Below, one piece after another: positions 23,221-32,380 of a stretch of DNA of 64,000 bases (its first letter is position 1; each line of letters starts with the position of its first letter). The notes beneath the pieces are model-generated. The model searched no databases, was not told where the DNA came from, and was given only the letters and a program-made list of their open reading frames with translations. The position numbers were made by a program, and so were the translations under genes. Origin of the DNA: Bacillota bacterium (GTDB lineage Bacteria; Bacillota; Sulfobacillia; JABLXB01); NCBI GenBank assembly GCA_013178305.1, contig JABLXB010000001.1, positions 874,253-938,252 on the forward strand, read 5' to 3'.

Positions 23221-23982
23221 TCAGAAGTAATTCTTCACCGTTTGCCTTACCGCGGTCAGTTGCTTCTTGAAGAGGCCTACATCCGTGTCCCAGATGAGAT
23301 AGTGGATTCCGTGGTTCAGGCAGAACTCGAGCTTCTTCTCGTCAGTAACGACGGTACCCATCTGCTTTCCGGCTTCGCGCGCTTCGGCGTTCATCTTGAG
23401 GAACGCCTCCTTCAGACCGCCGTTCACATAATCCGCGTCTGTGCCGAGTGAGAACGACAGGTCTACCGGCCCGAGGAACAGGATGTCAATACCCGCGGTC
23501 CGCGCGATCCCCCGCATCGAGTCGAACGCGGTGCGGGTCTCGATGTGGGCCACGATGAGGGTCTCCTCGTTGGACTCCTTCACGTACGCCTTCGTATCGC
23601 AGAAGCCGTACCTGCCGGCGCGGTGAGAAAACGCCACGCCCCTGGTCCCGAGCGGCGGATACCTGCCGGCGCGGACGATTTTCTCCGCGTCCCCGGGGCC
23701 ATTAAGCTGCGGGACCTGGATACCGTCCACGCCGGTGTCGAGCACGTGGAGCAGCGTCTCGTCCGCGAAGTTCCACGGGCGCACGACCACCTTCAGCCCC
23801 TGGGGCTGCGCCACCGACGTGAGCATCTTCACGTCGTTGTATGATAGAGGCGAGTGCTCCGTGTCGATCACGATGAAATCGAACCCCGACCACGCTATCA
23901 TCTCGACTATCTCGGTACTGGGGATTTTAACGAATATTCCCAGATGGGGTCGTTCGGCCAGTTGCCTCTTCAAGCTGCTCAT
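23221..23982 (-). CDS. HpcH/HpaI-family aldolase/citrate lyase-type enzyme
   Basis: Encodes 253 residues, normal for class II pyruvate aldolases. Catalytic marks are DTEHSP (His43), VVRPW (Arg68), the metal glutamate in AHIETR (Glu148) and the metal aspartate in GPVDLS (Asp174). The family cleaves 4-hydroxy-2-oxo acids (for example 4-hydroxy-2-oxoheptanedioate or 2-keto-3-deoxyrhamnonate) to pyruvate and an aldehyde. The exact substrate is unknown. It overlaps the cupin gene by four bases and precedes the TRAP genes, so the TRAP ligand probably feeds this pathway. Confidence 0.88.
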   Translation of the reverse strand: MSSLKRQLAERPHLGIFVKIPSTEIVEMIAWSGFDFIVIDTEHSPLSYNDVKMLTSVAQPQGLKVVVRPWNFADETLLHVLDTGVDGIQVPQLNGPGDAEKIVRAGRYPPLGTRGVAFSHRAGRYGFCDTKAYVKESNEETLIVAHIETRTAFDSMRGIARTAGIDILFLGPVDLSFSLGTDADYVNGGLKEAFLKMNAEAREAGKQMGTVVTDEKKLEFCLNHGIHYLIWDTDVGLFKKQLTAVRQTVKNYF

Positions 23983-24311
23983 TTGACGTACTCTTCCCTC
24001 TTGGGTGTGAACACGTCGAGGTTGACGACTGTCTCGTCGCCGATGATCTCGGCATAGTGCATGACGTTGGGCGGGACCACGAGCAGCCCACCTTCTTCGA
24101 GAATGAACATCTCGTCGCCCACGTGGAACCTGGTCTTGCCCTTCATGATGTAGACGATCTGCTCGAAATGATGGGCGTGGGGCGCCGGTTTGTGCCCGGG
24201 CTGGAGCCAGTTGATCGCGATGGTGGCCCCCTCACCGGTAAACGCCTTCCGCGAAACCCCCTGCCTGACTACGACCTCCTCAATGTCCTTCCAGTTCGAA
24301 ACGTTTATCAT
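23979..24311 (-). CDS. Small cupin-fold protein
   Basis: Encodes 110 residues, a single cupin barrel. Motif 1 spans residues 39-59, with His45, His47 and Glu50 as expected metal ligands; motif 2 includes PPNVMHY with His85. Such small cupins act as isomerases, lyases or binding proteins for sugars and organic acids, sometimes on the product of a neighbouring aldolase. It overlaps the HpcH/HpaI gene by four bases, so the two are co-translated. No specific activity can be named. Confidence 0.82.
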   Translation of the reverse strand: MINVSNWKDIEEVVVRQGVSRKAFTGEGATIAINWLQPGHKPAPHAHHFEQIVYIMKGKTRFHVGDEMFILEEGGLLVVPPNVMHYAEIIGDETVVNLDVFTPKREEYVK

Positions 24312-24360
24312 TGTCCTACCCCTCTCCCTGAACCCGGCTTCCCGTGAGGCCGCTTGACTG

Positions 24361-24402
24361 CCGCGGGGGAGCGCCGCCTAGTGAATCGCCGGCGCTCCGC
24401 GG
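24361..24402 (-). other. Strong hairpin between GntR/FCD and cupin genes
   Basis: GGAGCGCCG (24368-24376) pairs with CGGCGCTCC (24390-24398), and outer bases CCGC/GCGG extend the stem. It lies seven bases past the GntR stop. There is no T-run; it may attenuate transcription into the aldolase/TRAP genes. Confidence 0.45.
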
Positions 24403-24408
24403 CCCTGT

Positions 24409-25080
24409 CTACCGCCTGTCGGCCGCGGCAACACTTTGAATCTTTTCGTACTCCTTCAAGAGGCGAATCAGCGGGAAGAATCCGTCGGTTTTTTGCTTGT
24501 CTATCAGCTGGCAGGCGCGCTCGGCGTCGCCTCTCTCGAGCGACTCGACTATCTCGTAGTGCTCCTGGTTCGAGAGCTCGAACCTGTCGGGCAACATGGC
24601 GAAAACCCAGCGCGAGCGCTCGCTCCTGTCCCACAGGTCATTGATCAGCCGGATTATGACGTCGGCCTTGCAGCTGTAATAGATGGTGGAGTGGAATTCT
24701 TTGTTGAGACGACCGTAGAGCTTGGTGTCCCCCGCGATGCGGGCCTTCTCCATGTCGTCCGCGAGCCTGCGCAGTTTGGCGATGGCCGGCTTGTCTATCT
24801 TCTCCGCGGCGAGGCGAGTGGCAAGCTTCTCGAGCTCCCTGCGTACGAGGAAGATCTGTTCCAGCTCGTCGAGGTCCAGGCGCGCGACGCGGGCGCCCGA
24901 GTTGGGCTTCGTCTCCGCGAGTCCCTTGGCCACCAGCTTCTTGAGCGCCTCGCGGACAGGGGTCTTCGAGATTCCGAGTTCCTCGGCCACCCTCTCGATG
25001 CGGATGGGCTCGCCGGGCTTCAGTTCGTTGGACACGATCTTCTCTTTGAGGTACTCGTATACTTGATCCGCCTTGAGCAT
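24409..25080 (-). CDS. GntR-family regulator, FCD (FadR) subfamily
   Basis: Encodes 223 residues from ATG 25080 with AGGTGATC upstream. Residues 5-70 are the winged helix (LKPGEPIRIERVAEELGISKTPVREALKKLVAKGL). Residues about 75-215 are the all-helical FCD domain, with LVRRELEKLATRLAA, LNKEFHSTIYYSC and HYEIVESLERGD; the aspartate/histidines in these helices usually hold a metal that binds a carboxylate ligand. It sits between the DUF6282 and cupin genes in one leftward unit and is the likely regulator of this organic-acid operon. Confidence 0.9.
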   Translation of the reverse strand: MLKADQVYEYLKEKIVSNELKPGEPIRIERVAEELGISKTPVREALKKLVAKGLAETKPNSGARVARLDLDELEQIFLVRRELEKLATRLAAEKIDKPAIAKLRRLADDMEKARIAGDTKLYGRLNKEFHSTIYYSCKADVIIRLINDLWDRSERSRWVFAMLPDRFELSNQEHYEIVESLERGDAERACQLIDKQKTDGFFPLIRLLKEYEKIQSVAAADRR

Positions 25081-25214
25081 CTGATCACCTGTTTACTCAG
25101 AGAATCCGCCGCTCAGGTGGCTTGTAAGGCCCGCGCCGCGCGTCCTGCGTTCGGGCTGCGATCGCTGGTTTCCCGGCTCCATCGGCTGCTTACAGACGGC
25201 CCACCTGATGGCGG

Positions 25215-26114
25215 TCACGCGTCCATTTCGACCACAATCCGCGGGTTAACCTTCAGCATCGTCTCGAGCTCGGCCGGCGTCACGCCGTTCTCGAGCAGCA
25301 GCCCCGCGAAATGCTTCAACCCCGCCACCGGCCTGATGTTGCCCAGCTGGCCGCAGTCGGAGTTCATGATGACGTGCTCGACGCCGACTTCGCGGATGAT
25401 ACTCAGCGTCGTGGGCATGTCGACGTGGTAGAACTTCGAGACCGGGTCGGACGTGCATACACCGATCTCGACGAACGCGCCGAGCGCGGCCCACGCCTTC
25501 ATCTGCTCGATGGATGCTTCGATCATGTAGGCTGGGTGGTTCACCACGATGTGCTTGACCCCCAGCGCTGCGGCGGCTTTCACAATCGCGTCGACTTCCT
25601 GAGCGCTGCCGTGGCCGGTGCTGAGCACGAGGTTCGGGTGCTCCACCACCATTTCGAGGACGCGGAGGACGTCGTCAGCCGGGGAGCCGTCTTCCTTGAT
25701 GATCCGGATGTACCCGTGCTCGACCGACGAGGCCTTCTTCGCGGCGGGGAACTTGAGGCCGCCCTTGGAGTGCTTCACGTGGTGGTTCTCGGTGGAGATC
25801 GTGGGCATCCATACGAACCTGGCGCCCATATTGATCGCCAGTTCGAGTGCCTCGAGGTTGAGCCCGCCGACGGTATTGTTCAGGGCGATTCCGGAGAACG
25901 CCTTGAACTCGGGGGCTTTCGCGAAGTGCTTCTGCGCGAGTTCAGCCAGCGCCATGGTGGGGACTTGGTGGTCCTTGACGACGATCGCCCTGATGCCCGC
26001 CTGCTGCGCCTCGACGATTGCCTCGGCTACGTCGATGTCACGTGGAAGGATGGACGGCCCGAGGTGCTGGTGGAGGTCGAGTGCTCCGTTGATGAGGCTG
26101 TCGACCAGGTTCAT
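25215..26114 (-). CDS. DUF6282-type metallo-dependent hydrolase
   Basis: Encodes 299 residues. DLHQHLGPS supplies the HxH metal pair (His15, His17) of an amidohydrolase-like TIM barrel. STGHGS, VNHPAY and MNSDCGQ supply the later histidines and aspartate. The family is annotated as DUF6282 and its substrates are not known to me; by fold it should hydrolyse an amide, lactone or phosphoester, or decarboxylate. It is the first gene after the AT-rich control region and is followed by the GntR/FCD, cupin, aldolase and TRAP genes, so it probably acts on the imported compound. Confidence 0.78.
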   Translation of the reverse strand: MNLVDSLINGALDLHQHLGPSILPRDIDVAEAIVEAQQAGIRAIVVKDHQVPTMALAELAQKHFAKAPEFKAFSGIALNNTVGGLNLEALELAINMGARFVWMPTISTENHHVKHSKGGLKFPAAKKASSVEHGYIRIIKEDGSPADDVLRVLEMVVEHPNLVLSTGHGSAQEVDAIVKAAAALGVKHIVVNHPAYMIEASIEQMKAWAALGAFVEIGVCTSDPVSKFYHVDMPTTLSIIREVGVEHVIMNSDCGQLGNIRPVAGLKHFAGLLLENGVTPAELETMLKVNPRIVVEMDA

Positions 26115-26413: not shown

Positions 26414-27340
26414 TTATAGCCGTCCAGGCGGGTCGTGTAGTCTCCAGCTCGGCCCCGCCCTGGCAACCGAGTTTGATAGCGGGCGCTCGAGTATGTCTTC
26501 GATCTCGAGAGCGCAGGTTATCAACTCGTCCAGATCGACTCCCGTATGAACGCCCATGTCTTCCAGCATGTTTACCAGGTCCTCGGTGGCAACGTTGCCG
26601 CTCGCGCCGGGCGCGAACGGGCACCCGCCCGTCCCGCCAACCGCTCCGTCGAACGTCGTTATGCCGGCCCGAAGAGCTGCGTATACGTTAGCCAGAGCCG
26701 CGCCCCTTGTGTTATGGAAATGCGCTGCGAGCCTGTTCGCCGGCAACTGCCTGGTGAGCTCGTAGAACACTGTCTCGACCTGAGCGGGGTTCCCCATCCC
26801 GGTGGTGTCGCCGAGGCACACCTCCGCGGCCCCTTCATCGAACATCTGTTTGGCCATCGATACTACGGTTGACGCGGGGGTTTTCCCTTCGTACGGGCAA
26901 CCGAAAGCGGTTACGATATAAGACCTCAGTGGCACGCGCGCCTCCGTCGCAAGCCTGGATACGCGTGCGAGCTCGGCCATCGAAGCCTGGCGCGACATCC
27001 TCACGTTGTGCATGTTGTGGGTTTCGCTGGCAGAGACGAAGAACCCGAGGCCGCCGGCTCCGGACGCGAGGGCTCGCTCCGCCCCGACGGTGTTCGGCAC
27101 AAGCGCAAGATACTGGGTCCCCGGACGGCGCTTTATGCCCTTCATCACTTTCTCGGCATTGGCCATCTGCGGAACCGCTTTCGGATGGACGAAGGACACA
27201 ACCTCAATCCGCTTCAGGCCTGCGCCGGACAGGCGCTCCACGAGGTGGACCTTTTGCTCCGCCGACAGCATCTTCTTTTCATTCTGCAGGCCATCCCGGG
27301 GACCGACTTCAACGATTGTCGCTTCCAAAGGTAACTTCAT
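26414..27340 (-). CDS. mvaB: Hydroxymethylglutaryl-CoA lyase
   Basis: Encodes 308 residues from ATG 27340 with AGGAGGAGGG upstream. Marks of the HMGL/DRE-TIM family: IVEVGPRDGLQNE at the N-terminus, VCLGDTTGMGNP, the metal pair AAHFHNTRG, and the HMGL-specific cysteine loop GGCPFAPGASGNVATEDL. It cleaves HMG-CoA to acetyl-CoA and acetoacetate in the cytoplasm. Directly after HMG-CoA reductase, it reproduces the mvaA-mvaB arrangement of mevalonate-degrading pseudomonads. A terminator follows. Confidence 0.93.
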   Translation of the reverse strand: MKLPLEATIVEVGPRDGLQNEKKMLSAEQKVHLVERLSGAGLKRIEVVSFVHPKAVPQMANAEKVMKGIKRRPGTQYLALVPNTVGAERALASGAGGLGFFVSASETHNMHNVRMSRQASMAELARVSRLATEARVPLRSYIVTAFGCPYEGKTPASTVVSMAKQMFDEGAAEVCLGDTTGMGNPAQVETVFYELTRQLPANRLAAHFHNTRGAALANVYAALRAGITTFDGAVGGTGGCPFAPGASGNVATEDLVNMLEDMGVHTGVDLDELITCALEIEDILERPLSNSVARAGPSWRLHDPPGRL

Positions 27341-27379
27341 CCGCGGCCCTCCTCCTGGCGACAAGGCTCAGGCCGCGAG

Positions 27380-28650
27380 TCACGGCTTGCCCGTCAATTC
27401 CTGGACCATCTCCTGGGCGCGGTCCAGGCGTACCTTCCTCTCGGCAACAAGCCTCTCGACCACTTTCTCGATGAGGTCGCCCGTCGCGCCGGCCATAACT
27501 GCGATATTCCGTGCGTGAAGCTCCATGTGTCCCCTCTGCACGCCTTCCGTGGCCAGCACCTTCACGGCGGCGAGGTTCTGCGCGAGGCCCACGGCGGCTA
27601 TGATCTCCCCCAGTTCGGCCGCCGACTTGACTTCGAGGATCTTCACCGCCAGCCTGGCGATGGGGTGAACTTTAGTAGCGCCGCCAATGAGCCCCACAGC
27701 CAGCGGCAATTCGATGGCGCTGCGAGGTCTCCGTTAGCGTTTTTCTCCCAGGTGGTAAGCGATGTGTACCTGCCGCTCCGCGCGGCGTAGGCGTGGGCGC
27801 CCGCCTCAATCGCCCTTGTGTCGTTGCCGGTAGCAAGTACTACCGCGGTGATGCCGTTCATTATCCCCTTGTTGTGAGTGGCTGCGCGGTACGGGTCCGC
27901 GGCCGCAAACTCGTACGCCACCACTATGCCATCCACCACGTCCGGACCGCCCAGGGCTTCCTTTGAGACAACAGTCCTGGCGCGCGCGAGCCTCCTGTCC
28001 GCCAGGTTGGAGAGGATCCGTAGGTACACGCGGCCGCCGGTGATTCTCTCTATCAACGGGGCCACGGCCTCGGCCATGGTGTTGACCGCGTTGGCGCCCA
28101 TAGCATCGCGGGTATCCACAATGAGGTGGGTGACCACCATCGGCCCGACCCTCGAATGGACGATGTGCACCTCGATGTCCTTGGCCCCGCCTCCAACTTC
28201 GGCCAGCATTGGGTCCTGCTTATTGCAGAGTTCGAGAATCTCCGCCTTGTGCTCGAAAAGACGCATCCTTGCGGCGCCCGGGTCGGCTACGTTCACCGCC
28301 TGCACCTGAGCCCTCATCACCGGCCCGGTGCTGGACGTGAAGAACCCACCCTTATCCCGCGCGAGCCTGGCGGCGTTCGAGCATGCAGCCACTACCGACG
28401 GCTCCTCCACCGCCATGGGAACCAGGCAGTCCTTCCCGTTTATCAGGAAGTTGACCGCCACACCCAGCGGGATCTGGATCGTGCCGATCGCGTTCTCGAT
28501 CATGTGGTCGGCCTGGTCCATGCTAAGCGCGCCGGTGTTGTCAAGCAGCGCAATCTCCTGATCCGTGAGCCCGGCGAAGTCCTTCACGAAACCGCGGCGC
28601 TCCGCTACCGGCATTTTATAGAAGCCCGAAACCTTGCTCGTCTTCTCCAT
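27380..28650 (-). pseudogene. mvaA: HMG-CoA reductase, class II, split by a one-base frameshift
   Basis: ATG 28650 has GGAGGGGAGG upstream. The first 310 codons carry the class II catalytic set: glutamate in VEEPSVVAA, lysine in THNKGIMNG and aspartate in GNDTRAIEAGAHAYA. Near 27705-27720, after NANGDLAA, the frame shifts and continues in the next frame as IELPLAVGLIGGATKVHPIARLA, ending with the catalytic histidine in GHMELHARN. Adding one base gives 424 codons, the normal length. Class II enzymes oxidise mevalonate to HMG-CoA with NAD(P). The break may be real or a sequencing error; the downstream part has no other damage. Confidence 0.88.
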
Positions 28651-28741: not shown

Positions 28742-30109
28742 TCACTTGCCCATCAGGCTCAGGATCTGCGGCACAATCCAGCCCGAAGCGTAGTAGGCCA
28801 TGAACTGCACACCGGTGTGGATGTCGAAGTGGTTGTGCAGGATGCCGCCAAACAACGAGATCGTCAGCGCGAGCACCACTCCGACAATCCCGGCCTCGTA
28901 GAAGGCAAGCATCACGATAAGCCCGATGAACGATCCGATCAGCGCCTCGTGGCTTACCTTCCTGAACAGCCACTCCGTGCCTTTTCTCGCGTAGTTGATC
29001 GCGACGGGGTAGGCGATCAGCGCCCCGCCGATGACACCGATGTAAGCGTACAGCAGGAACTGCCCCGGCGAGAGCATGTTGTGCAGGTTGTTTACCGGCT
29101 GAACCGTGAACCGCGGGGGCGCGTTGAAAAGCGGCGCGGCGGGGCCAAGACCCATGGGGCTGAGCGGCAGGCCGAACGCCAGGAGCGGTATGATGGTCTC
29201 GCCTATGTACGTGGCGTTCGTCACCGCGTCCATCACGGCTACGGCACTCGTGCACTTGTGGTACAGCTCCTTACACCGCGATCCCACGAGCTCGCCGAGG
29301 AGAACCGTCATGCCGGCGGGCGAGAAAGTGAACGTGCACGCGCTTACAGCGCTCGTGATGGTCACCCACAGCCGCTGGAACGGGGTCAGGATCTTGAACG
29401 GGTTTGGGAACATCTTCGAGTAGCCGCCGATGTCGGGCGCGAGCCAAACCTCGTTGACGTTCTCCCTCATCTGCCTCTTCCGGATACGCGGTATGAGCAC
29501 GCTGAACACCTCGGCGACCATGGGGCCGACCGTGATCCCCATGAATATCGAGATGAACAGCGTCTTACCTACAGCCTGCGTCGCAACCCTCTGCAGCCCC
29601 TGTATGAGAAACGAGAACGGCACAAGGGCGATCACGGCCGCCCATTTTGCTTTCGACATGTAGGCTAGCAGCACCGCGCCGAGGGTGAACAGAAGGCCCG
29701 AGTACGCCGATACCTGCTTACCGAACGGGGCCAGCACCATGGCCAGCGCGACAGCCACCGCCACGGCTACCAGGCTCCCGATCAGCGAGCCCGCGGCCAT
29801 CTTCTTCATGCCGACGTGTGGTGCGCCCACCCGCTTCAGCACCGAGCAGTACAGTACCATAGGAACCGCCATCGTGCTGCCCGGCAGTGCAGCCATTGCT
29901 GTAGGGATGGTATGCGATATCTGCATCGCGGTGGAGATCCCGATAAACCAGGCGAACAGCACGGACGGCGGAAGGCCGAGAAGAACCAGGATCAGTGTAA
30001 GGGGCGCCATCGTTGCCGTCTCGTCCGTTCCGGGGATGATGCCGATTATCGTGAACAGGATACCGCCCAACACTGCTACCCCAAACGCGAACAGCATCTC
30101 GCCCAGCAT
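28742..30109 (-). CDS. Tripartite tricarboxylate transporter (TctA-type) large permease
   Basis: Encodes 455 residues with about 11-12 membrane spans. The N-terminal FTIIGIIPGTDETATMAPLTL matches the TctA signature (G-x-I/L-PG), and FGLPLSPMGLGPAAPLF is the second, internally related half. The start codon follows the upstream small-gene stop without a gap (TAA-ATG). TctA permeases take up di- and tricarboxylates with a separate binding protein, which is not encoded nearby. Context (mvaA-mvaB downstream, sigma-54 promoter upstream) suggests mevalonate or 3-hydroxy-3-methylglutarate as the ligand; that is inference. Confidence 0.82.
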   Translation of the reverse strand: MLGEMLFAFGVAVLGGILFTIIGIIPGTDETATMAPLTLILVLLGLPPSVLFAWFIGISTAMQISHTIPTAMAALPGSTMAVPMVLYCSVLKRVGAPHVGMKKMAAGSLIGSLVAVAVAVALAMVLAPFGKQVSAYSGLLFTLGAVLLAYMSKAKWAAVIALVPFSFLIQGLQRVATQAVGKTLFISIFMGITVGPMVAEVFSVLIPRIRKRQMRENVNEVWLAPDIGGYSKMFPNPFKILTPFQRLWVTITSAVSACTFTFSPAGMTVLLGELVGSRCKELYHKCTSAVAVMDAVTNATYIGETIIPLLAFGLPLSPMGLGPAAPLFNAPPRFTVQPVNNLHNMLSPGQFLLYAYIGVIGGALIAYPVAINYARKGTEWLFRKVSHEALIGSFIGLIVMLAFYEAGIVGVVLALTISLFGGILHNHFDIHTGVQFMAYYASGWIVPQILSLMGK

Positions 30110-30538
30110 TTACTGCGTCCCCCCTTTTCCGCCGGCTTTCGAGAGCGTCTCGAACAGCCCGAGTTCCCTGAGTTCGTCACGCGCCGCGGCCTCAACGCTC
30201 TCAACCGCGGCTGCTTCCTCTTCCGGTCTCATGCCGAGTGTCGCCAGGGCCTCGGCCACGTCCACCTGCTCCGCCTTTTCCACCAGCACGCGCTTCGGCC
30301 GGTACAGTGTCGCCGCGATCACGCCGCTGGCGACGCAGCCGGTAACCCCCACCATCAGCGCGTATCCCTTGACGAGTGCCTCCGACAGGCCCTTCTGCGC
30401 CGAGAAAACCTGTAACCCTACCAGATAACCACCCAGAGTAAGCACGATTCCGATGACAGTCGATGACGCCAGGTGAACCAGATCAACGGTGTCTCCCCAT
30501 ACCTCCGCGTACGGCATTCTCTTAACCTGACCTGACAT
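30110..30538 (-). CDS. Small two-span membrane protein, probable permease partner
   Basis: Encodes 142 residues from ATG 30538 with AAGGGGG upstream. Two hydrophobic spans at about 15-45 and 60-85 are followed by an acidic, alanine-rich cytoplasmic tail of about 55 residues. It occupies the place of the TctB small subunit before TctA but has two rather than four spans and no TctB motif I recognise. The tail (VAEALATLGMRPEEEAAAVE) looks helical and may contact other proteins. It is the first gene after the sigma-54 promoter. Confidence 0.6.
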   Translation of the reverse strand: MSGQVKRMPYAEVWGDTVDLVHLASSTVIGIVLTLGGYLVGLQVFSAQKGLSEALVKGYALMVGVTGCVASGVIAATLYRPKRVLVEKAEQVDVAEALATLGMRPEEEAAAVESVEAAARDELRELGLFETLSKAGGKGGTQ

Positions 30539-30637
30539 CCGGGTTCCCCCTTTCCGATTGGGTTTGGGCCATCCTGAAGCGCGCGACACGGGTCCGGTGA
30601 GGCCACATTGCAGGGAGTGACCCCGGAGAAACGCAGA

Positions 30638-30654
30638 AGCAAGCGGCATGCCAG
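30638..30654 (-). promoter_or_regulatory. Sigma-54 promoter (-24/-12)
   Basis: The minus strand reads CTGGCATGCCGCTTGCT, an essentially perfect match to the sigma-54 consensus TGGCAYG-N4-TTGCW. The expected start is near 30627, giving a leader of about 90 bases before ATG 30538. A sigma-54 activator gene lies directly upstream. Confidence 0.85.
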
Positions 30655-30724
30655 TGGGTGGGGATAACATAAGCCCTGCTCGTCAAGCGTTTGGCGGCGG
30701 CGCCAGCGCCTGGAGAAACCGCAT

Positions 30725-30748
30725 GGGTGTATACATAAGTATACACCC
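30725..30748. promoter_or_regulatory. Perfect palindromic upstream activator site
   Basis: GGGTGTATAC and GTATACACCC form a perfect inverted repeat around ATAA. The centre is about 110 bases upstream of the predicted sigma-54 start, the usual distance for an enhancer-binding protein site. Confidence 0.7.
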
Positions 30749-30803
30749 GTCATTGCCGTGCCAGCGTAGCACCATGTAAGGTCATGTTTACTATGTATAT
30801 ATT

Positions 30804-30824
30804 GGTGTCTCCCGAGTATACAAC
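30804..30824. promoter_or_regulatory. Degenerate second activator site
   Basis: GGTGT at one side and AGTATACA at the other repeat the halves of the 30725-30748 palindrome with a one-base shorter core. Two tandem sites are typical for hexameric sigma-54 activators. Confidence 0.4.
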
Positions 30825-30856: not shown

Positions 30857-32380
30857 CTACTTCAGGGCCTTCGGGCCCCTGAACTGGCCGGGCTCCAGCC
30901 CGAACTTCGACATCTTCTTGTAGAAGGTCCGCCGGCTCACACCCAGGTACTGCATGGCGGCGGATACGTTCCCATTGGCCTGCTCGAGCGCTTCCCTGAC
31001 GGCGGTTTCCTCTATCTCCGAAACCAGGGCCTTCAACGCCTTGCCGCGGGTAACCGGCCTGGCGGCGGCTGCCTCGTCGCGGCCCGCGCGGCCGTCCCGG
31101 CGCTCCTCACCCTGCCCACCGGTGTGCCGCGGTCCCATCATATACGCAGGGAGGTGTGACTCCAGGAGGGTATCTCCCTCGCAGATCAACACCGCGTGCT
31201 CGATGGTGTTGCGGAGTTCTCTTACGTTCCCCGGCCAGCAATATTGCACTAGCCGGTTGACCACTTCCCGCGATAACCGAAGCCCCTTCGAATACACGTG
31301 GTTGAACTCTTCAACGAAAGCGGTGGCGAGGGCCGGTATGTCATCGGGCCGCTCGCGCAACGGGGGGATGATGACCGGCACCACGCACAGGCGATAGTAG
31401 AGGTCTTCCCGGAATTTGCCCTGTTTGACCATGGCATCGAGATCCCTGTTAGTCGCGGCGAGAATCCTGGCGTCCACCTTGAGCGTGGTCGTGCCGCCGA
31501 CCCGTTCGAACTCCCGCGCCTCGAGCACGCGCAACACCTTGGCCTGCATGGACAGGCTCATCTCGCCGATCTCGTCGAAGAAAATGGTGCCGCCCGACGC
31601 GATCTCGATCTTGCCCGGCTTGCCACCCTTCCTCGCCCCCGTGAAAGCACCCTCCTCGTAGCCGAATAACTCGCTTTCGAGAAGGGTCTCTGGAATCGCG
31701 GTGCAGTCGATCCTGATGAGGGGCTTCGAGGCCCTGGTGCTCGACAGGTGAATCGCCCTTGCCACCAGCTCCTTTCCCACCCCGTTCTCCCCGATGATAA
31801 GCACGGTGGCGTTCGTAGGCGCCACCCTCGATGCAAGGCTGAGGGCCTGCCGGAGCTTACCGTTGCTCCCGATGATACTCTTGAACGGGTCCGGCAACGC
31901 GACGTTCCGGTTGAGTTCATCCCGGAGGTGATCGGCCAGCATCCTGGCCTCACGTAGCTTCCGCGTGAGCTCAAGCACCTCGGTGACGTCCCTGAACACC
32001 GACACGGCGCCTATGACCTTGCCGCCGGCGAGTATTGGTTCGATGTTGACTACAACCGTCTTCTTCAGCGTCTTTACGAAGGCTTCTTCTTCCCTCACAG
32101 GGACGCCGTCTACCACGACGCGGTTGATTTTGGCCTCCGGCTCAATCTCGGCCATGCGCTTGCCGAGGATGCGCTTGACCGGCACCCTGAGTATCCGCGT
32201 GTAAGCCGGGTTAGCGTAAACGATGCGGGTGTCGCGATCTATGACTACGACACCCTCGTGAATGGAGTCCAGCACCCGGACGAGGCCGGCGGAGTGAGGG
32301 TATTCCAGCAGCCCGTTTCCCACCACTCTACCCTCCGGTGCCCTGCCTTCCGGCCCTTCGAGTGGAGTCGTCCCGGCCAT
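30857..32380 (-). CDS. Sigma-54-dependent transcriptional activator with PAS domain
   Basis: Encodes 507 residues. Residues about 30-140 are a PAS sensor domain. The AAA+ domain (165-400) has Walker A GENGVGKE (197-204), the sigma-54-contacting GAFTGA loop (244-249) and Walker B GGTIFFDEIG (263-272). The C-terminal Fis-type helix-turn-helix is GNVSAAMQYLGVSRRTFYKKM. A linker of about 35 residues, rich in Arg and Ala, joins AAA+ and DNA-binding domains. There is no receiver domain, so it should sense a small ligand directly. It is encoded just upstream of palindromic sites and a sigma-54 promoter serving the permease-mvaAB genes. Confidence 0.95.
   Translation of the reverse strand: MAGTTPLEGPEGRAPEGRVVGNGLLEYPHSAGLVRVLDSIHEGVVVIDRDTRIVYANPAYTRILRVPVKRILGKRMAEIEPEAKINRVVVDGVPVREEEAFVKTLKKTVVVNIEPILAGGKVIGAVSVFRDVTEVLELTRKLREARMLADHLRDELNRNVALPDPFKSIIGSNGKLRQALSLASRVAPTNATVLIIGENGVGKELVARAIHLSSTRASKPLIRIDCTAIPETLLESELFGYEEGAFTGARKGGKPGKIEIASGGTIFFDEIGEMSLSMQAKVLRVLEAREFERVGGTTTLKVDARILAATNRDLDAMVKQGKFREDLYYRLCVVPVIIPPLRERPDDIPALATAFVEEFNHVYSKGLRLSREVVNRLVQYCWPGNVRELRNTIEHAVLICEGDTLLESHLPAYMMGPRHTGGQGEERRDGRAGRDEAAAARPVTRGKALKALVSEIEETAVREALEQANGNVSAAMQYLGVSRRTFYKKMSKFGLEPGQFRGPKALK

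Follow-up and report, generated by a model that had tools for sequence, protein, structure and literature searches.

A predicted one-operon sigma-54 switch with three TGTATAC-type activator sites at a putative mevalonate/HMG catabolic operon of a Bacillota bacterium

Our analysis of a 64,000-nucleotide stretch of a Bacillota genome (hereafter the window) indicates that it very probably carries the regulatory DNA of a sigma-54 switch for a single operon, in which a PAS-AAA-Fis activator (EBP) would act through three upstream sites on a -24/-12 promoter. Activators of this type bind their sites as dimers, build an AAA+ ring, loop to the sigma-54 polymerase at the -24/-12 element and open the promoter with ATP. 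In the present case, activator dimers are predicted to bind three TGTATAC-N3/4-GTATACA sites, centred at about -187, -166 and -109, where they would probably form the active ring; looping of the DNA would then carry the AAA+ domain to the sigma-54 polymerase waiting at -24/-12, and ATP hydrolysis would open the promoter. Transcription, with a predicted start at about 30627, would yield a small permease subunit, a TctA permease, an HMG-CoA reductase and an HMG-CoA lyase, whose likely role is the uptake of mevalonate or 3-hydroxy-3-methylglutarate (the candidate substrates) and its breakdown to acetoacetate and acetyl-CoA. The PAS domain may respond to a small molecule that serves as the trigger.

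An earlier note on this DNA had placed the control region between permease-mvaAB genes and a PAS-AAA-Fis activator, and the parts are indeed found in that order on the minus strand. Reading from 32380 to 26414, the locus consists of the activator gene (30857-32380, minus strand, 507 aa), whose 3' end points toward the control region, an intergenic stretch of 325 bp, a gene for a 140-aa protein (30110-30532, minus strand), the TctA-family permease gene (28742-30109, minus strand; PF01970, 74.4 bits against a cut-off of 28.9), mvaA, encoding an HMG-CoA reductase of the degradative (NAD) type (27380-28650, minus strand; TIGR00532), and mvaB, encoding an HMG-CoA lyase (26414-27364, minus strand; NF004283, 377.7 bits against a cut-off of 246). 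The 140-aa protein, the product of the first gene of the operon, matches no Pfam or NCBIfam model; it is encoded beside TctA in relatives too, and is probably a small permease subunit. Further along lie a DUF6282 gene (25215-26114) and, behind it, the gene of an FCD-type GntR regulator (24409-25080, minus strand; PF07729, PF00392), which is probably a transcription unit separate from the mva operon. A DUF6282-GntR-cupin-aldolase block adjoins the mva operon both in the window (23979-26114, minus strand) and at the related locus L065 (9368-12140, plus strand), in different orientation and position.

The activator has the domains that define the EBP family. Its translation contains PAS_4, Sigma54_activat with the GAFTGA motif (PF00158, 229.3 bits) and a Fis-type helix-turn-helix (HTH_8, PF02954, 38.6 bits). 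The best NCBIfam model is that of PrdR (NF041552), and the score of 439.4 bits, below the curated cut-off of 795, places the protein outside the PrdR equivalogs. RpoN is also encoded in the genome (PF00309 match of 68.5 bits, above the cut-off). The EBPs of G011 and G418 carry a CBS pair N-terminal to the PAS domain (in G418 as judged by eye), which Pfam does not find in the window EBP; the signal input may therefore differ between the window and these two relatives.

The -24/-12 element, TGGCATGCCGCTTGCT (30638-30653, minus strand), lies on the same strand as the target operon and predicts a transcription start near 30627. Described previously as near-perfect, it is in fact exact, with 0 mismatches to TGGCAYN5TTGCW (30653-30638). 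Of the 16 perfect matches to this pattern in the genome (L004-L019), 11 are located 118-264 bp (counted from the aligned end of the EBP gene) behind an EBP gene on the same strand, and the EBP-then-promoter arrangement is therefore a recurrent layout in this genome.

Three candidate enhancer sites lie upstream of this element. The proximal one is the palindrome GGGTGTATAC-ATAA-GTATACACCC (30725-30748) with perfect 10-bp arms, whose core (30728-30745) is an exact TGTATAC-N4-GTATACA with 0 mismatches, centred about 109 bp upstream of the predicted start; this bears out the claim of the earlier note that a perfect 10-bp-arm palindrome lies about 110 bp upstream. The same note reported one degenerate second copy at about 190 bp. 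Degenerate sites do occur there, but they are two 17-bp sequences, which brings the sites to three altogether: TATATACATAGTAAACA (30785-30801, minus strand; centre at about -166) and TGTATACTCGGGAGACA (30806-30822, minus strand; centre at about -187), each with an N3 spacer and 2 mismatches to TGTATACNNNGTATACA. These two are spaced 21 bp apart, a spacing that recurs in G011 (L065), where the proximal site has the counterpart TGTATACACCCGTATGCA and the middle site has one as well. All the sites of the window fit the pattern TGT-N11/12-ACA. Beside the proximal site, at about 30757-30771, we also observed GTGCTACGCTGGCAC, an 11/12 near-match to another palindrome, GTGCCA-N4-TGGCAC, with a 3-bp spacer; a match of this quality was equalled in 1.5% of shuffles.

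The individual elements are unremarkable in frequency. With at most 1 mismatch, the -24/-12 pattern gave 2 matches in the window against 2.93 expected, and its genome-wide matches (60 + 64) were fewer than those of a reversed-pattern control (88 + 76). Perfect 10-bp-arm palindromes (loop 0-10) gave 8 hits at 4 places in the window, and 0, 0, 3, 1 and 0 hits in five block shuffles. Neither the -24/-12 element alone nor the palindrome alone beats chance, whereas their combination and position exceed it. In the whole genome (3.37 Mb), the N4 and N3 forms of TGTATAC-N3/4-GTATACA occur, with at most 2 mismatches, at 5 and 6 places, respectively, and 3 of these 11 are found within one 95-bp stretch of the window. 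Taken together, the -24/-12 element, the presence of RpoN and the repeated upstream sites kept in relatives identify this stretch as a predicted sigma-54 promoter region under EBP control.

The genome-wide search for the palindrome, proposed earlier as a means of defining the regulon, thus returned 11 places, of which only the 3 at this locus accompany a promoter. Within 450 bp of the other 8 (at most 2 mismatches) there is no sigma-54 element, so that no further member was accepted and the regulon is most likely this single operon. All 8 are covered by long open frames; at one of them, C7:149613 (L165), the covering frames do not look like real genes, and the match may lie between genes, next to one for a GntR/HutC-like regulator. 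Similar palindromes with a shorter spacer (TGTATAC-N2-GTATACA-like) were noticed at two positions of the same genome: L002 (C2:199288), with the gene of an FCD-GntR protein about 380 bp away, and L003 (C4:32200), between divergent genes for an aconitase-type hydratase-like protein and a homocitrate/isopropylmalate-synthase-type-like protein. Both are probably operators of another regulator.

The palindrome could also be read as an RNA hairpin or terminator that ends the activator transcript and resembles an enhancer by coincidence. In favour of this, a 168-nt fold (-71.9 kcal/mol, z -3.2) contains the palindrome as a 10-bp stem, and a terminator-like site is predicted closer to the end of the activator gene (30846-30826). 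The palindrome is nevertheless followed by no T-run, and the site is present in three copies instead of a single one. Moreover, relatives retain the letters TGTATAC/GTATACA themselves, not merely the ability to pair with other letters. This conservation of letters, despite the good fold, led us to reject the RNA reading, which we regard as extremely improbable.

The sites were further compared across 59 EBP neighbourhoods placed on a midpoint-rooted EBP tree; L092 (a near copy of L091), L101 (a partial EBP match only) and L130 were left out of these rows. L130, the contig DUMF01000026 of G011, is the same contig as L065. A branch of 40 rows (support 92, SH-aLRT and not bootstrap) comprises the 22 rows of the window's branch proper and a nested subclade of 18 rows (support 99), whose EBPs mostly go with the GTGCCA palindrome; this split follows the branches of the tree, and not the labels ('TGTATACsite', 'weak/half') that were assigned after the sites had been seen. 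A site of at least 12/14 is present in 10 of the 22 neighbourhoods and in 0 of the 37 others, and a site of at least 11/14 in 14 of the 22 and again in 0 of the 37 (Fisher 1e-5 and 2e-8, respectively, both ignoring relatedness). The 8 members of the branch without a site of at least 11/14 were entered as misses. The sequences behind the EBPs differ in G+C content (61% for paralogs of the window's own genome, 41% for the branch and 37% for the GTGCCA group), and the GTGCCA group is the fairer control because a G+C content of 61% by itself reduces the chance of the paralogs having a TGTATAC site.

On the window's branch, an EBP accompanies an mvaA operon in four cases (G000, G011, G418 and G242). 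All four have a 13/14 or 14/14 site, the best being 13/14 in G418 and 14/14 in G242, and each holds at least one additional site. In G011, the same operon is accompanied by an EBP that is 57% identical to that of the window and by sites of 13/14, 11/14 and 11/14. Two further EBPs of the branch, at L066 and L067, stand ahead of non-mva operons, and the sites are still there (at L066, no clear -24/-12 element was seen within the stretch examined). The motif therefore goes with the activator and not with the operon. These comparisons support the view that the sites belong to the EBP, and not to the operon or to the nearby GntR gene.

The GntR gene deserves attention of its own, since operators of FCD-GntR regulators typically contain a GTATAC core. 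The TGTATAC palindrome might thus be the operator of the nearby FCD-type repressor or of a paralog, with the operon being GntR-repressed; this GntR has 15 matches in the genome (E <= 1e-5), and the GTATAC-N2-GTATAC palindrome on C2 lies about 380 bp from one of them. If this were so, the same box would be expected at the sites and at the regulator's own operon. Instead, TGTATAC sites are missing upstream of DUF6282-GntR in both GntR-bearing genomes, bar one 11/14 match in L065, and another box (10/12 to ATCGTATACGAT) is present there in the window and L065, of which neither EBP-promoter region contains even a 9/12 match. Furthermore, the sites persist in G418, G242, G053 and G030, where the best GntR is only 33-44% identical and encoded elsewhere in the genome (the best match in G011 is 76% identical). 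In view of the differing boxes and of the sites in genomes without a close GntR relative, a GntR operator was rejected as the main reading and appears very improbable to us, and we retain the sites as those of the EBP.

The content of the target operon suggests catabolism of mevalonate or 3-hydroxy-3-methylglutarate. Both marker enzymes of a degradative mvaAB operon exceed their model cut-offs (TIGR00532 and NF004283), with mvaA being frameshifted: the first piece scores 370.1 bits (cut-off 259.95) and the second 85.4, and tblastn places the pieces in frames -3 and -2, with the break at about 27718-27724 (minus strand). This is either a sequencing error or a sign of a decaying operon. In the latter case, or if TctA imports another acid (TctA-family permeases transport varied acids), the switch could work as described on an operon that does not serve mevalonate/HMG breakdown here. 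In addition to the frameshift in the assembly, such a reading may draw on the unrelated operons fronted by same-branch EBPs at L066 and L067, which imply that this EBP branch is not bound to one substrate. On the other hand, of 51 related sequences that were compared, with one genome present twice, 26 have mvaA as a single unbroken stretch longer than 380 residues, and the gene travels with the TctA permease, while the EBP, permease, lyase and promoter of the window are all uninterrupted. A different function is therefore unlikely in our judgement, albeit a serious possibility, and mevalonate/HMG catabolism is the role that we prefer. A known counterpart is the inducible mvaAB operon of Pseudomonas mevalonii, which codes for an HMG-CoA reductase of the degradative kind together with HMG-CoA lyase and has its own activator, MvaR. 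The window resembles it in combining a degradative reductase-lyase operon with a dedicated activator; P. mevalonii belongs to another phylum and apparently has a different transporter.

A scan of a named genome collection with the permease yielded 48 loci. In 24 of them mvaA, the small protein and TctA occur together, and in 20 of these 24 an EBP is matched as well, along more than half its length. About 20 more distant mvaA operons share the layout of the window, mostly with the palindrome GTGCCA-N4-TGGCAC and with EBPs of the other subclade, and a TGGCAYN5TTGCW-type promoter is found behind the EBP in most of the distant mva loci inspected. Several of these operons (within L086-L112) have the GTGCCA-N4-TGGCAC palindrome and start with a gene that we take to be AtuA-like (DUF1446). 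A GTGCCA-N4-TGGCAC match of at least 10/12 is present in 13 of the 18 neighbourhoods of the GTGCCA subclade against 2 of the 41 others, the window being one of the 2. The recognition-helix position right after SRRTFY (its commonest form) is Arg in 18/18 members of this subclade and in 0/22 of the rest of the branch. The correlation between Arg and motif is confounded with descent, and we offer it as a lead. We tentatively propose a family of sigma-54 mevalonate/HMG operons extending from Bacillota to Planctomycetota, whose activators may have switched between TGTATAC-N3/4-GTATACA and GTGCCA-N4-TGGCAC specificity while the operon was kept, the switch tracking one position of the Fis recognition helix; this is possible, though somewhat short of an even chance.

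The predicted switch closely resembles EBP regulons of the Clostridiales, for which Nie, Dong and Yang (2019; PMC6615313) describe EBP genes adjacent to their targets and multiple binding sites, most of them 100-250 bp upstream of the -24/-12 promoter. In the same paper, TGT-N10-12-ACA sites are given for 15 of 39 groups (e.g. PrdR and YcbP), and a single target operon for 170 of 263 EBPs. The window shares with these systems a PAS-type EBP beside its target, several inverted TGT/ACA sites and one operon, and differs in its mva/HMG target, absent from the targets in Table 1 of that paper, and in an EBP that scores under the PrdR cut-off. The branch EBP at L066 is accompanied by UroD-like and phenylacetate-CoA-ligase-like genes, which in our own reading resemble the YcbP target of PMC6615313. 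The enhancer sites of NifA and FhlA are named there as similar to TGT/ACA sites. Like these, the sites of the window are inverted TGT/ACA repeats that precede a sigma-54 promoter and would be bound by a Fis-type HTH; unlike these, they have a longer and specific core, TGTATAC, and serve a different operon. A search of the open-licence literature, weak evidence in itself, found no report of an mva operon under sigma-54 control. The mechanism is a textbook one, and the target, the breakdown of mevalonate/HMG, has apparently been undescribed so far.

The earlier note considered the full regulatory logic visible from the sequence. This is true of the activator, its cognate sites, the promoter and the target operon, but not of the signal that would induce them; mvaA, moreover, carries a frameshift in this assembly. 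The locus would add mevalonate/HMG breakdown to the catabolic operons controlled by EBPs, and, with activator, sites, promoter and operon all together in one complete unit, it lends itself to tests that require no more than purified protein and a short piece of DNA. The possible specificity switch among relatives is mildly interesting: mva operons with two enhancer motifs provide a comparative handle on the choice of DNA by Fis-type activators and, if the proposed switch is true, the two kinds of operon would constitute a natural system in which to read the DNA code of these proteins.
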